Shown here in pieces: positions 813 through 6,582 of a stretch of DNA of 64,000 nt. The stretch comes from Henriciella sp. Lineage in GTDB: Bacteria; Pseudomonadota; Alphaproteobacteria; Caulobacterales; Hyphomonadaceae. A program made the translations under genes and the position numbers. The notes under the pieces are model-generated. The model searched no databases and was not told where the DNA came from. It worked only from the letters and a program-made list of their open reading frames with translations. The stretch lies in the NCBI GenBank assembly GCA_013213785.1, contig JABSPZ010000011.1, positions 62,001 through 126,000 on the forward strand, given 5' to 3'. The stretch's first letter is position 1; each line of letters starts with the position of its first letter.

Positions 813-1850
813 ATGAACATGGATGAAAAGTTACACTTTGCAGACCTTTCTGACAGGTTGCTGGATTGGTACGCCGCGTCCGCGCGCGAACTGCCTTGGC
901 GTATTGGTCCAACTGACCGTGCCAAGGGCGTAAAACCGGATCCATATCGGGTTTGGCTCGCCGAGATCATGTTGCAGCAAACCACGGTGCCTCATGCGAC
1001 CCGGTACTATCTCGCTTTCACACAGCGCTGGCCGAGAATCGAAGACTTGGCAGCTGCGAAAGATGAGGACGTTATGGCGGCGTGGGCCGGGCTTGGCTAT
1101 TACGCCCGCGCCCGCAACCTACTTAAATGCGCTCGCGAAGTGGCGGTGCTCGGCGCCTGGCCGGATTCGGTCGAAGGGCTGCGCAAGCTTCCCGGTATAG
1201 GGCCTTACACCGCAGGCGCAGTTGCAGCACTCGCCTTCGGGCGTCAAGCGGCGGCCGTAGATGGGAATGTCGATCGGGTGTTTGCGCGGCTGATGGCTTT
1301 AAAGGGCGAGTGGAAGCTCGAGAAAGAGCGCCTAAAAGCGGAGGTCGAAGACCTGGTGCCAGCCGATCGCCCGGCTGAGTTCGCTGAAGCATTGATGGAT
1401 TTAGGGGCGACGGTTTGCACGCCGAAATCGCCAAATTGTTTGCTCTGTCCGCTAAGGTCCATGTGCGCAGCGCAAGCCGAGGGCCAGCCACAGCGATACC
1501 CAATCAAACCCAAGAAAACACCGAAACCAACGCGCCTCGGTCATGTCTATGTTTTGTTCGGTGAGGGCGGAAGTGTCATGACGGAGCGACGTCCGGACAA
1601 GGGCTTGCTTGGTGGTATGCTCGGCCTCCCAACGTCAGACTGGGCCGACGCATTGCCGGCCTCCCAATTCCCCTCTCAGGCGAATTGGGAGGCCGTGGGC
1701 GAAGTTCGGCACGTCTTTACGCACTTTGCCTTGACGCTCACCGTTTGGCGCGCGGACGCGGATCAATCGTATTCAGACCCGCAGCAAACGGCGGATGCCT
1801 TGCCGAGCGTTTTTGCAAAAGCACTGAAATTGGCGCTGCCAACACGATAA
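813..1850 (+). CDS. mutY: A/G-specific adenine glycosylase
   Basis: 345 residues from the ATG at 813 (MNMDEKLHF). Removes adenine mispaired with 8-oxoguanine or G in base excision repair. Visible signatures: WYAASARELPWR at the N-terminus, the LAEIMLQQTTV block, GLGYYARARNL, a helix-hairpin-helix LPGIGPYTAGAVAALAF followed by VDGNVDRV containing the catalytic Asp, and the four Cys of the [4Fe-4S] cluster in CTPKSPNCLLCPLRSMC. The C-terminal part resembles the NUDIX-like 8-oxoG recognition domain. Length is typical. The frame stays open upstream to 741, but that would run over the start of dciA. Confidence 0.95.
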   Translation: MNMDEKLHFADLSDRLLDWYAASARELPWRIGPTDRAKGVKPDPYRVWLAEIMLQQTTVPHATRYYLAFTQRWPRIEDLAAAKDEDVMAAWAGLGYYARARNLLKCAREVAVLGAWPDSVEGLRKLPGIGPYTAGAVAALAFGRQAAAVDGNVDRVFARLMALKGEWKLEKERLKAEVEDLVPADRPAEFAEALMDLGATVCTPKSPNCLLCPLRSMCAAQAEGQPQRYPIKPKKTPKPTRLGHVYVLFGEGGSVMTERRPDKGLLGGMLGLPTSDWADALPASQFPSQANWEAVGEVRHVFTHFALTLTVWRADADQSYSDPQQTADALPSVFAKALKLALPTR

Positions 1851-2113
1851 AACCTGCAAGTGGAATTGGCACGCGTTTGGGGTAATGCGTCTTGCAAGAG
1901 AATGTATTGCAGACCGCTTTGCGTATTGCAGTACCCGGGCTTTTCCCATGGCCCGCTGGGCATGAATCAACCCGGCAAGTGCAGTTAATTTTGCCCAAAA
2001 ACTCATAAAATACAGAGATTTCAAGCGTGGATGTAAAATTGCGTTGTTCAATTAGCTTTTGGCGAAATTTCGTTCGGCGAGAGCGCTAATTTTGAACCAA
2101 AAAGGGAATTCCC
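1851..2113 (+). promoter_or_regulatory. Leader of the curli-like operon with structured 5' region
   Basis: No gene is seen in these 263 bases. The nine-mer GTATTGCAG occurs twice at 1904-1912 and 1923-1931 (19-bp period), suggesting paired regulator half-sites. Near the 3' end GTTCAATTAGC (2046-2056) can pair with GCTAATTTTGAAC (2085-2097), with two extra bases bulged; the loop holds the perfect palindrome CGAAATTTCG (2063-2072). The ribosome-binding stretch is itself inside the palindrome GGGAATTCCC (2104-2113), which abuts the ATG at 2114. The arrangement could regulate translation of the first gene, but no known riboswitch class is recognised. Confidence 0.45.
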
Positions 2114-2554
2114 ATGAATACGATAAAATATCTCTCTGCCATGGCACTCGCGGCTGGTCTTATGGGATCGATCGCAGCTCACGCGGCGCCTCAAAACGGA
2201 AAGCAATTCAAGAATGCGATGCAAAATGCGTCTCAAGCACGCTTGAACCGCAATGGCAGCAACGTACTCCGTTTTGATGCAGATCAAGAAACAACGATGC
2301 GCAATGTCACTGTTGCGAATAGCGGGCTGCGCATGAACTCTGTCCATGTGGACGACTCACTCATCGCTGATCTCGATGTGGACCAAGACACGAAAATTCG
2401 TCGTTCAACGATCTCACATTCAAACGTGACTTTGAACTCGCTCGACATGACACGTGCCCGTTCGATCAAGAGCGACGTGGACCAAGATGCCACCGTTCGA
2501 AATCTGTCCGCCTATGGAGCGACGATCTCGGCAAATACGATTTCCATTCGATAG
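2114..2554 (+). CDS. Exported 33-residue-repeat protein, candidate fibre subunit
   Basis: 146 residues. A Sec signal peptide (MNTIKYLSAMALAAGLMGSI, probable cleavage near AHA at residue 24) is followed by an Asn/Gln-rich segment and three tandem repeats starting at residues 55, 88 and 121, exactly 33 apart, the last shortened. Each begins D-x-D-Q-(E/D)-x-x-hydrophobic-R and continues with alternating hydrophobic/polar residues ending N-(S/T)-hydrophobic, a beta-solenoid-like pattern. No cysteines are present in the mature part. The Asn/Gln/Ser content, the regular repeat, and its place upstream of a CsgC/CsgH-like and a CsgG-like gene suggest a surface amyloid or fibre subunit analogous to curlin or HfaA. 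It does not match the classical curlin repeat, so the function is inferred. Confidence 0.6.
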   Translation: MNTIKYLSAMALAAGLMGSIAAHAAPQNGKQFKNAMQNASQARLNRNGSNVLRFDADQETTMRNVTVANSGLRMNSVHVDDSLIADLDVDQDTKIRRSTISHSNVTLNSLDMTRARSIKSDVDQDATVRNLSAYGATISANTISIR

Positions 2555-2563
2555 GAGATTGTG

Positions 2564-2974
2564 ATGAAGCGCGCGAGACGGAGCCTCTCATATTTGGGAT
2601 ACGGAACGTGTATCTTGATCGTTATCACACTGTTGATGCCCTCTTATGTGCAGGCCCAGTCCGCGCGCTTCACCATCATTGACGCACGGGACGGGATGAC
2701 GCTTGAAGTCGTGGAAGCTTATGCCAATGCTATGGGCGCAAACGCCGAAACCGCTTTGGTTCGTAGCCGCATAAAAGTGCTAACCTCCTCGCGGCACGGA
2801 TTTGATGCTGGGGCCGTAGAGCTTCCAGATCATGTTCGCCAAGCCGATATCGACGTCACGGTGATGGTCCAACAGGAATCGGGTCCAACTGGATCAATTG
2901 ACGCCAACCATATTCATGCCGCGCGGAACCTACCGCAGCGCATAAAGCAATCCACTCACATTCAAGGACACTAA
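2564..2974 (+). CDS. Small exported CsgC/CsgH-like protein
   Basis: 136 residues from the ATG at 2564. A GTG at 2561 is also in frame, but GGAG at 2554-2557, overlapping the upstream stop, fits the ATG better. A hydrophobic signal segment (YGTCILIVITLLMPSYVQAQ) precedes a domain of about 100 residues. The stretch ETALVRSRIKVLTSSRHG...AGAVELP...IDVTVMVQQ resembles the beta-sandwich pattern of CsgC/CsgH proteins, periplasmic factors that keep curlin soluble. The match is at the level of pattern only. The gene follows the repeat protein by 9 bp and precedes the CsgG-like gene by 3 bp, so the three are almost certainly cotranscribed. A periplasmic chaperone for the repeat protein is my inference. 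Confidence 0.5.
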   Translation: MKRARRSLSYLGYGTCILIVITLLMPSYVQAQSARFTIIDARDGMTLEVVEAYANAMGANAETALVRSRIKVLTSSRHGFDAGAVELPDHVRQADIDVTVMVQQESGPTGSIDANHIHAARNLPQRIKQSTHIQGH

Positions 2975-2977
2975 GCC

Positions 2978-3832
2978 ATGCGCATATTCGCACTCTTTCT
3001 TCTTCTTTGTGCGCCGGCTTGCACCTCAGTTCAAAACGCGGCCGACGTGAAGCCCCCAATTGGGATGAAATACACCCATGCCGGATTTAGCGTCGATGAA
3101 GATGCTGCCCGGGCGCACCAAGCTTTCGAGATGAAGCTCGAAGAAGCCAAAGCGCTGATTTCGGAGGCGCGTCCCAAGACCGCTCCTTTGACGCTCGTTT
3201 ATGTGACCAACACGTTGAACCTGGTCGATACGCCAACTTCTTTCACACGTGATATGGGCGCGCCCGAGGCACCGACAGCGCGCATCGCGGCCACACAGCA
3301 GTATCGCGGAAGCTCGCTTCGCGTGATCGATCCGAACCACTTCTCTGCTGACATGGCGCTCGATTGCCAAAATGCCGACAATGGCGCGCGTGTCTTTCAG
3401 TTGCGCACTTATGTGAGCAATTATGACCCGGCTGTACGGCGTAACAATCGCGGTGTGTCGCCTTATGCTCAAGATAACGAGACGGGAATCGATCTGTCGC
3501 GGCAATCTGGTTCAACAACGGATGTCTTTACCATCGATACAGAGCTGACCGATTGCTATGGCAACGTGCTGCGCGCTTTATCGCCGGTGGTCGAAGTTAC
3601 GTCTGTTTCTCGCGGAAACTCGGTCTTCTTCTTTTCTGAGTTTTTCGGCTTGTACGCCAATCAGTCCAATTATGTCTCTACCAATCTAAACGGCGCCAAA
3701 AAGCGGGCGATTGAGTTGGTAATCGCCGAGATCGGACTTTTCATGGCAGGGGTGCCTGACCATGAGATCAATCGAATCTTTGCGCCCGTCATTACCGAGG
3801 CTGCGGCTGAACAGACTGTTGGGGCTTCGTAA
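2978..3832 (+). CDS. Divergent CsgG/HfaB-like lipoprotein, candidate outer-membrane secretion channel
   Basis: 284 residues, close to the length of CsgG. The N-terminus MRIFALFLLLCAPAC is a lipoprotein signal with the modified Cys at residue 15. A long helix-forming segment follows (DEDAARAHQAFEMKLEEAKALI). The second half runs RTYVSNYDPAVRR...IDTELTDCYGNVLRALSPVVEVTSVSRGNSVFFFSEFFGLYA and ends with a helix (KKRAIELVIAEIGLFMAG). That succession (a YxSN strand, strands ending xxTGxVL-like, an aromatic hairpin, a C-terminal helix) parallels the CsgG fold, whose nonamers secrete curlin. HfaB of Caulobacter is a CsgG relative that anchors holdfast. Sequence identity is low, so this is a hypothesis supported mainly by operon context. 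Confidence 0.5.
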   Translation: MRIFALFLLLCAPACTSVQNAADVKPPIGMKYTHAGFSVDEDAARAHQAFEMKLEEAKALISEARPKTAPLTLVYVTNTLNLVDTPTSFTRDMGAPEAPTARIAATQQYRGSSLRVIDPNHFSADMALDCQNADNGARVFQLRTYVSNYDPAVRRNNRGVSPYAQDNETGIDLSRQSGSTTDVFTIDTELTDCYGNVLRALSPVVEVTSVSRGNSVFFFSEFFGLYANQSNYVSTNLNGAKKRAIELVIAEIGLFMAGVPDHEINRIFAPVITEAAAEQTVGAS

Positions 3833-4191
3833 CAGCTTTCTGGTTCCGGATCCTGCGCTGAAAAACTCGACGAGCATCCAATGCACAGATTTTGCCCGAA
3901 CATGTTCGCGCATGCAGCAATTCTCATCATGACCGGAACAATTCCCGCTGACCAAGATTAGAGTTCGCGATCCACTCAAAAGAGTGATTGCGTCTCAGTC
4001 GTCCAGAAATGGACGGGCTATTCGGCGCACTGGATTGCGCTGATTACATAAAATCCAATCGTCGGTGTCAGGCGACATCGCCGATTTTCCTTTTCCTTAT
4101 CTGCGTTCGCGAAAAGACCGCCGCAAGAAACTGCGCGCGTTCTGGTTCGCCTCACTCACGCCTTTTGCCTGGGCGGAAGAAAGGATATGAA
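3833..4191. other. Intergenic region before the broken TonB receptor
   Basis: 359 bases without a convincing gene. It contains the perfect 12-bp palindrome CGAACATGTTCG (3897-3908) and two small stem-loops, CACTC/GAGTG (3973-3986) and CGTCC/GGACG (4000-4015), neither followed by a clear T run. AAAGGA just before 4192 is a good ribosome-binding site for the receptor gene. The receptor frame stays open back to 3988, but that stretch has no signal peptide and I do not treat it as coding. Confidence 0.4.
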
Positions 4192-6582
4192 ATGACTGCC
4201 TCCCTAAAAACTTATTGTGCCCTTGCACTAGTTCTTACTACCATCGCCGCGTATGCGCTCCCGGCACAGTCGCAATCGACTGAGACCACCTCCGAAGAAG
4301 ATGCCATAATGACCGCCGTGGTCGTTGAAGGGCGCCGCATCTCCCAAACCGATCTCGCTATTGGGCTTGATGAAGCGACGAATACAGTCGCTGTGACGCG
4401 CGAAGAGTTATTATCGGCCCCGTCGGGAATCTCCGGTCTCAAGATGTTGGAGACGTTGCCCGGCTTCAATGTCCAAACGGACGGCGCGCTAGGGCTCTAC
4501 GAGTTCGGGAACTCAGTGATGGTGCGCGCGTTCAATCTGCAGCAGATTGGGTTTGTTTTGGATGGGATTCCGATGGGCCGATCGGACGCTTTTGGGGGCA
4601 GTCCGATCTTCCGATATGTCGACAATGAAAATCTCGGATCAGTCGTCGCTTCGCCGGGGGCAGGGGATGTCTCTCTGCCTAGCTATGCTTCACTTGGCCC
4701 AATCGTTTCATACAACTCAATTGACCCAGCGACGGAGCTTGGCGGAATCATTGGGTACACCGTCGGCGATGACAATTTACAACGGACGTTTCTGAAGTTT
4801 GAAACCGGGAAGATTGGCGGCTTTTCAGCTTATATCAGTCGCTCGAAAACCGATGGCGACTTGTGGCGGGGGCCTGGCACAATTGATCGCGAGCATTTTG
4901 AGGCGAAGGCTCTTTATGAGTTCGATGGCGGGACCACTTTGACGGCCAAATATGTTTCGAACGACTTTTTTGACTTCGACTCGCCGTCCGGCTCTCGATC
5001 GACATTTGAAGCGAATGGGTCTGATTTTGGCTATGCCGAAACCCTTCCAGAGACAGGTTGTATCATTCCCGTTGAGGTCGACTTTAATCAAGATGGCGTA
5101 ATTGACGACTCGGATTTCCAGCCTCTTCAAACCGGCTCATGCACATCTTACTTCGCCGATCGTGTGAATATACGCCAGGACAGCCTCTATTCCTTGAGCT
5201 TGGAGTCTAACCTTGCAGAGAACTTTTTCGCGAAGGCCACGGCTTATTATGAAGACAAGGATGGGTTTGGTGTTTCTCCCGATAGCTACGGGAACACTTT
5301 GGGTCGGTTTTTAGATCAGGTTGAAGTGGGCGTGCCGGTGACGCACCCGCGCGGTGTTCAATACGGCTTATCAACCGTTGGCGGTGACCGAACGGGTCTG
5401 GTGCTGGATTTTGAATGGCAGATTGCCAATCACAGTCTCGAGTTTGGGGGGTGGGTTGAAGAAGATGTCTATGATCGCACGCAGCTACGCCTCAACAATA
5501 CGAATGGTAGTGCCGATGGCGAAGTTCTGTTCGATGAGGTCGCCTATTTTCGACGCGATTACACCGCAACGCGCGAAAGTACTCAGGTCTATCTCAAAGA
5601 CACGATCAGCTTGTTGGATGACCGTCTGCGCGTCGAGCTTGGGGCTAAGCTGCTCGACATTGATTATGAACTCGATGGATATCGCGACTTTAATGATTAT
5701 GCCATTCGCATTGGCGATCCAGGCGAGGGCGACACGTTGCCGGGCTTTGGGCCGCAAGTGATCACTGCCAGCTATTCAAGCGATCCATTGCCCATGGTCG
5801 GGGCCGTTTATGATCTCAATGAGACCGACCAGGTGTTTGCCTCTTACTCGCAAAACTTCGCACTACCACGAGGCGTAGATACGATTTTCGATGATGCGGT
5901 AGGTTTCCCCGCGCCGCAGCCGGATGCTTAGGAATCGACCAATTACGAGATTGGGTATCGCACAAGCCGACCTCAATTTAACGCAAGCGTAGCCGCCTTC
6001 TACACGGCCTTCGACAACCGTATTGTCTCGGGAAACGTGCTCAATCCGGCGACGCAGCAGCCGGAAAGTTTCTCCGTCAACGCGGGTGAGACAAGCGCCT
6101 TTGGTGTCGAGCTGTCTGGGGTCTATCAGCCAGACTTTTTCGACGACCGAGTCTACGCCAACTTCAATCTGACTTATAATCAGACCGAACTGAAAGATGG
6201 ATTCGGGACAAATCCAGCTGGCAGCCAGCTCGCGGACAGTCCGGAGTGGATCTTCACCGGTGGCGTGACCTATGAGCCAACCGAGTGGCTCGTTGCGAAC
6301 CTATCAACCAAGTATACGGGCGAGCGTTTTGCGGACTTCAAAGAAGCATCGGTTAGCCCCGGCAATGTCATGGAAAGCTATTTCCTATGGAGCGGTTATG
6401 TCGATATTGGCGGACCGAACAATTTTGGCCTTCCCGAGAATATCAGCTTGCGGTTCAACGTGGACAATATTTTCGATGAAGAGACTTTGGCCTTCACGTT
6501 TACGTCTTCAAGCGGCGGGAATGCTTTCTTCAGACCGCTCAATCCGAGAACATTCCAAGCAACCTTAACCGCCCGCTTCTAG
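4192..6582 (+). pseudogene. TonB-dependent receptor interrupted by one in-frame TAG
   Basis: The frame from ATG 4192 runs through a signal peptide (ALALVLTTIAAYALPAQS), a plug domain and most of a 22-stranded barrel, hits TAG at 5929-5931, then continues in the same frame with ESTNYEIGYRTSRPQF and an intact barrel end to a terminal Phe at 6582. The receptor pattern at this place is xxSTNYEIG, so the TAG replaces one codon of a conserved stretch; GAG, CAG or AAG to TAG would each explain it. Total length of about 796 codons is normal for the family. Residues 297-309 (DFNQDGVIDDSDF) form an EF-hand-like calcium loop. Substrate unknown. Either a recent pseudogene or a sequencing error; the flanking codons show no other decay. 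Confidence 0.85.

Follow-up and report, generated by a model that had tools for sequence, protein, structure and literature searches.

Two described systems lie closest to the locus analyzed here, the curli system and the Hfa holdfast anchor. The CsgG/HfaB pore is a nine-fold channel, and the fold shared by CsgC and CsgH is all-beta. In the available part of Dueholm et al. 2012 (PMC3521004), the curlin repeat is given as X6QXGX2NX10, alphaproteobacterial curli systems are described as often carrying csgH, about half of the genera that have such systems lack csgE and csgF, and the curli subunits show great drift. The same excerpt describes many alphaproteobacterial systems in which only the curlin subunits are recognizable, so that export must fall to other proteins (PMC3521004), and this leaves room for systems like the one reported here. 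CsgC and CsgH are distinguished by their cysteines, a CxC motif in CsgC and a distant pair in CsgH, according to the accessible portion of PMC4838910.

We analyzed a 64,000-nucleotide stretch of a Henriciella sp. genome (the window) and found near its start three adjacent genes, A, B and C, which together form a real but very rare orphan operon with a curli-like plan. Literature searches, which as text searches are blind to sequence, gave background on curli and Hfa and no account of this operon among the papers listed.

A real but very rare three-gene operon

The operon occupies positions 2114-3832 on the forward strand, with 9 bases between A and B and 3 bases between B and C (Table 1); a GTG at 2561 is also a possible start for gene B. 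Signal peptides are apparent by eye in proteins A and B, and C has the features of a lipoprotein described below. The ORFs thus confirm what an earlier sequence-only reading of this DNA had described, three exported proteins packed with 9- and 3-bp gaps. Two other genomes have the three genes in this order as well, and across the three homologous operons pN was 0.16-0.37 compared to a pS of 0.68-0.83, with synonymous sites near saturation. Because the order recurs and pN lies well below pS, we consider A, B and C to be real genes, and the substitution pattern indicates that their copies are diverged and under purifying selection.

Table 1. Features of the A-B-C operon and of the PilZ-domain ORFs that follow gene C at two homologous loci
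Feature	Position	Strand	Description
Gene A	2114..2554	+	146 aa, exported repeat protein, candidate surface subunit
Repeat 1 of gene A	2261..2359	+	residues 50-82, period 33
Repeat 2 of gene A	2360..2458	+	residues 83-115, period 33
Repeat 3 of gene A	2459..2551	+	residues 116-146, two residues short
Gene B	2564..2974	+	136 aa, exported, candidate periplasmic partner / minor subunit
Gene C	2978..3832	+	284-aa lipoprotein, possible remote CsgG/HfaB relative
PilZ-domain ORF after gene C	L002:1702-2073		PF07238 over cut-off
PilZ-domain ORF after gene C	L003:2349-2699		PF07238 over cut-off

One promoter-like and five terminator-like sites were counted, both numbers lying within the spread of shuffled sequences, and no Rfam matches were found at 1500-4500. 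The stretches that precede the operon in the window and at the homologous locus L007 contained neither a CtrA-like site (TTAA-N7-TTAA, which we take as the motif, with at most one mismatch) nor a 9-mer common to the two stretches.

Among 105 genomes of the family, C was present in three. Strong matches to A and to B fell in the same three genomes, with seven further genomes for A only at E 0.02-0.098 and 13 further genomes for B only at E 0.012-0.098. The order A-B-C was kept in all carriers, the contig of one of them (G024) beginning inside gene A, and protein identity to the window copies was 46-66%. A lack of clustering of the three genes in related genomes had been named beforehand as an outcome that would refute the earlier reading, and the check did not refute it: A, B and C stood together in all 3 of the 105 family genomes with strong matches.

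Wider searches found no carrier beyond these three. An order-level draw of 299 genomes yielded C from its own genome only, with neither G016 nor G024, the other two carriers, which the draw apparently did not include. Ten weak matches (E 3e-4 to 0.098) accompanied the own genome in a class-level draw of 385 genomes, stops interrupting 5 of the 11 rows, and a phylum-level draw of 349 genomes gave the own genome and one weak match that was taken as chance. Two of these weak matches were inspected and set aside as chance, L113, which is crossed by a stop, and L034, which has an open frame and resembles a membrane protein by eye. A two-peptide-pattern scan for C across genome_contigs (84,980 species) retrieved two Henriciella MAGs, apparently the same-genus genomes G016 and G024; a single-protein scan of genome_contigs found none. 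Diverged copies escape scans of both kinds. C was not found in plasmids using tblastn or in viral contigs using peptide-pattern scans (0 of 17 and 0 of 120 pattern stretches).

The genes flanking the operon vary. In the window, a mutY-type gene (HhH-GPD and NUDIX) lies upstream and a TonB-receptor gene downstream, and at L007 the upstream side has a pair of genes that look stomatin-like by eye; the upstream side of L006 is out of view because this locus begins inside gene A. Downstream neighbors differ among the three genomes. The TonB-dependent receptor gene directly downstream in the window (4192-6582, forward strand) has an in-frame TAG at 5929-5931, and since the pieces on either side both match PF00593 in consecutive regions of the profile, the gene appears to be either recently inactivated or affected by a base-calling error.

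Possible remote similarity of protein C to CsgG and HfaB

Protein C has a lipobox-type cysteine, Cys15, in all three homologues (by eye). Neither PF03783 nor NF037935 matched any of the three at a maximum E-value of 10, although the HMMER filters discard most matches above about 0.1 in such scans. Searches of Pfam and NCBIfam with C, alone or as an alignment, gave nothing beyond chance, and sequence searches of the PDB in the same two forms gave nothing better than E 0.62. PDB chains matched at E 0.62 and 0.88 in the library searches were taken as chance. An AlphaFold model of C (pLDDT 33.4) was too poor for judging the fold.

Profile-profile alignments were made with hhalign. For the main test, the query was a three-row alignment of the C homologues and the target a 45-sequence CsgG/HfaB-type profile, which combined the hfaB of the window genome with 44 further loci, out of 49 fetched, that cleared the E 1e-4 threshold. 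Aligned end to end, C scored 25.3, higher than any of 150 column shuffles, which reached 11.4 at most, and than any of 100 block shuffles, which reached 21.6. These counts are not clean probabilities because alignment mode and profile were picked after trying others, the controls having been run with the 45-sequence profile only and this profile having been chosen after narrower ones. The reversed C alignment scored 3.2. Run singly end to end, the C proteins of L002 and L003 scored 30.9 and 20.2, and the window's own C was marginal at 7.9 compared to 7.6 for the best of 117 null proteins, which were other proteins of the same genome, 230-345 aa long and fitted with the same first 20 residues, only 6 of them lipoprotein-like.

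Other configurations did not bear out this signal uniformly. By contrast with the end-to-end result, the local score of C against the 45-sequence profile (21.5) was equalled or beaten by all 150 column shuffles and by 99 of 100 block shuffles, and the reversed alignment scored 25.4; the best local alignment placed C 160-266 onto positions 198-290 of the 355 in the profile, that is, its last part. End to end, narrow profiles of 13 HfaB-type and of 3 CsgG sequences both failed, with scores of 1.5 and 3.8, and the combined 16-sequence profile gave 21.1. In an earlier local test using the 16-sequence profile, two C homologues scored 27.8 and 26.3, more than each of 36 unrelated proteins and than 100 of 100 and 99 of 100 shuffles, respectively, and the window's own C (15.8) fell inside the null. 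HfaB and CsgG found each other in the same pipeline with Prob 99, so any kinship of C to CsgG must be far more distant.

These results are suggestive, but not proof, that C is a relative of CsgG/HfaB, and membership of the operon in the curli/CsgG-type systems is not established. Of the CsgG-like lipoprotein proposed from the sequence alone, the lipoprotein stands, with its Cys15 lipobox in 3/3 homologues; the CsgG likeness is suggested by the end-to-end score and finds no echo in local alignment, narrow profiles or the Pfam, NCBIfam and PDB searches. Our leading but tentative reading is that A-B-C is devoted to exporting a single repetitive surface protein across the outer membrane or anchoring it there, and that C may be a strongly diverged CsgG/HfaB-family pore.

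A different architecture, only slightly less likely, is that the lipoprotein C resembles the CsgG superfamily in its core and has no membrane hairpins, or has an unrelated fold, and that it anchors A and B as a static outer-membrane complex, a coat or adhesin, A being exported otherwise. This would be in keeping with the absence of CsgG from all library searches with C and with the failure of the narrower profiles to align. Charged and polar residues are abundant in the middle of C, at the place expected for the first membrane hairpin of CsgG (by eye), and two non-lipid cysteines, C130 and C193, are kept in 3/3 homologues and would fit a rigid periplasmic domain. The end-to-end profile signal argues against such a static complex, as does the tight linkage of the three genes, with no exporter gene recognized by eye among the neighbors.

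Repeats in protein A and a small candidate partner, protein B

After the signal peptide of protein A, approximately residues 1-24 (by eye), comes the N-terminal segment QFKN.MQNASQARLNRNGSN, in which a single position varies across the three homologues. A period of 33 residues ranked top among 42 periods tested in each homologue (z 6.1, 7.3 and 5.4; 300 shuffles each), so that the 33-residue-repeat protein noticed by the sequence-only reading holds with z 5.4-7.3. All nine repeats of the three homologues have Q at position 9, N at position 26 and acidic residues at positions 6, 8 and 10, and eight of the nine have S at position 21. At the DNA level, no tandem repeat was detected at 2000-4000. 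The curlin profile PF07012 matched neither A nor its two homologues and, although Q and N are present, the nine repeats do not have the Q-x-G-x2-N spacing of the curlin repeat. Matches of A or its homologues to PF20232, PF22804 and PF23433 were taken as chance, and so was a FosA library match in the scan of window proteins (15.2 bits compared to a cut-off of 250).

Protein B lacks any cysteine past the signal peptide in all three homologues, and sequence searches of Pfam, NCBIfam and the PDB gave no family match. Its AlphaFold model is weak (pLDDT 51.5) and arranged as strand-helix-strands; the best Foldseek match of this model to PDB folds had an E-value of 1.9. Judged by the two-cysteine criterion, with 0 Cys in the mature part in 3/3 homologues, B was rejected as CsgC/CsgH. 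The CsgC/CsgH-like beta protein of the earlier reading is thus not supported, since B has neither a mature cysteine nor a family match and a helix separates the strands in its weak model.

It is improbable that A-B-C is an alphaproteobacterial curli operon of known type (csgA/B, csgH and csgG) that has merely drifted. The presence of csgH, the frequent loss of csgE and csgF and the drift of subunits in alphaproteobacterial curli, as given in the available part of PMC3521004, lend this some appeal, but in the three carrier genomes neither PF07012 (curlin) nor PF10614 (CsgF) gave a match with an E-value of 0.1 or below. Moreover, the repeats have a period of 33 with a DxDQD-type acidic core, and B is devoid of the cysteines of CsgC and CsgH described in the accessible portion of PMC4838910.

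Possible role and relation to Hfa and curli

The window genome carries a canonical hfaA-hfaB-hfaD set on another contig (C3), with NF037934, NF037935 and NF037936 all over cut-off, and the sole PF03783 match in this genome is its hfaB. Proteins matching PF03783 occur in 67 of the 105 family genomes, including G016 but not G024 (84% complete). None of the three window proteins matched the HfaA, HfaB or HfaD models. Because a canonical hfaABD lies elsewhere in the genome, the operon is probably not its holdfast anchor and looks like an addition. The earlier statement that no CsgA/B repeats, CsgE/F or HfaD are recognizable holds for A-B-C itself with Pfam and NCBIfam; in the genome, HfaD is present on another contig. 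The holdfast-anchor-like role suggested in the same reading was rejected in view of the hfaABD genes over cut-offs on C3. Henriciella is a relative of holdfast-forming bacteria, and similar gene types (an exported repeat protein and a lipoprotein) in a Henriciella-like host could point to A-B-C as the organism's holdfast anchor in a variant Hfa form, but this is highly improbable given the canonical hfaABD on another contig, the lack of any match of A-B-C to those models and the operon not being found in 102 of 105 family genomes, against a PF03783 protein in 67 of 105.

Elsewhere among alphaproteobacteria, CsgG/HfaB-type genes at L044, L050 and L054 adjoin exported proteins (by eye). Repeats beside these genes are curlin-like at L044 and TAVGNS-like at L050 (by eye), and PF03783 is matched five times in G357, the genome of L054.

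Directly 3' of C, a PilZ-domain ORF follows in two of the three genomes, after 2 bases in G024 and 14 bases in G016. These ORFs scored 23.3 and 29.1 bits, respectively, with PF07238, for which the Pfam cut-off is 22.5, and both carry RxxxR and DxSxxG, which we take to be the c-di-GMP-binding motif; PF07238 PilZ-domain proteins are c-di-GMP receptors. No PilZ ORF lies beside the window copy of C; the three PilZ matches of the window genome are on C3 and, at a distance of about 92 kb, on C7. c-di-GMP is an attachment signal, and the position of the PilZ gene after C in 2/3 genomes suggests that c-di-GMP governs the unit there.

Gene order, co-occurrence, selection, repeats and lipobox are what the data show for A-B-C; beyond them, the export or anchoring unit that we tentatively favor might work as follows. 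C would be a lipoprotein pore in the outer membrane through which A, presumably unfolded, leaves the periplasm and reaches the surface, and C may recognize A by its conserved N-terminal stretch. Outside the cell, A may adopt a repetitive beta structure, its Q and N residues stacked and one face acidic, and form a filament or coat. B could be a small helper, periplasmic or secreted, that prevents A from folding or caps it, and in the two genomes with a PilZ gene, the PilZ protein might place the unit under c-di-GMP control.

More doubtful still, although possible, is that A-B-C stands next to curli and Hfa as a third branch of CsgG-type secretion of surface proteins. Such a branch would consist of three orphan families in a few Henriciella-type genomes and export an acid-faced beta protein of 33-residue repeats, perhaps responsive to salt or calcium; it would have a c-di-GMP receptor gene in some strains and, in the window genome, exist alongside an ordinary holdfast anchor. 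Should C be a CsgG-type pore, the nucleation-precipitation pathway would withstand much greater change than its profiles capture. Recognition by the CsgG pore could then be studied in a very small system, a three-gene version with a 146-residue substrate. If C is not of CsgG type, the operon still defines three co-travelling orphan families, with a hint of c-di-GMP control.

Compared with known systems, A-B-C resembles curli in that A has repeats with invariant Q and N and is accompanied by a small exported protein and a lipoprotein. It differs from curli in its 33-residue repeat with an acidic DxDQD-type core, in the lack of a curlin or CsgG profile match and in the absence of cysteines from mature B. 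PilZ-domain proteins (PF07238) are adjacent downstream of C in two of the three genomes and not in the window genome. Unlike the Hfa genes, A-B-C match no HfaA, HfaB or HfaD model, and the lipoprotein gene is last in A-B-C, whereas it is in the middle of hfaABD. Like hfaABD, the locus is a short operon whose exported products include one lipoprotein, and C may share the CsgG/HfaB core.
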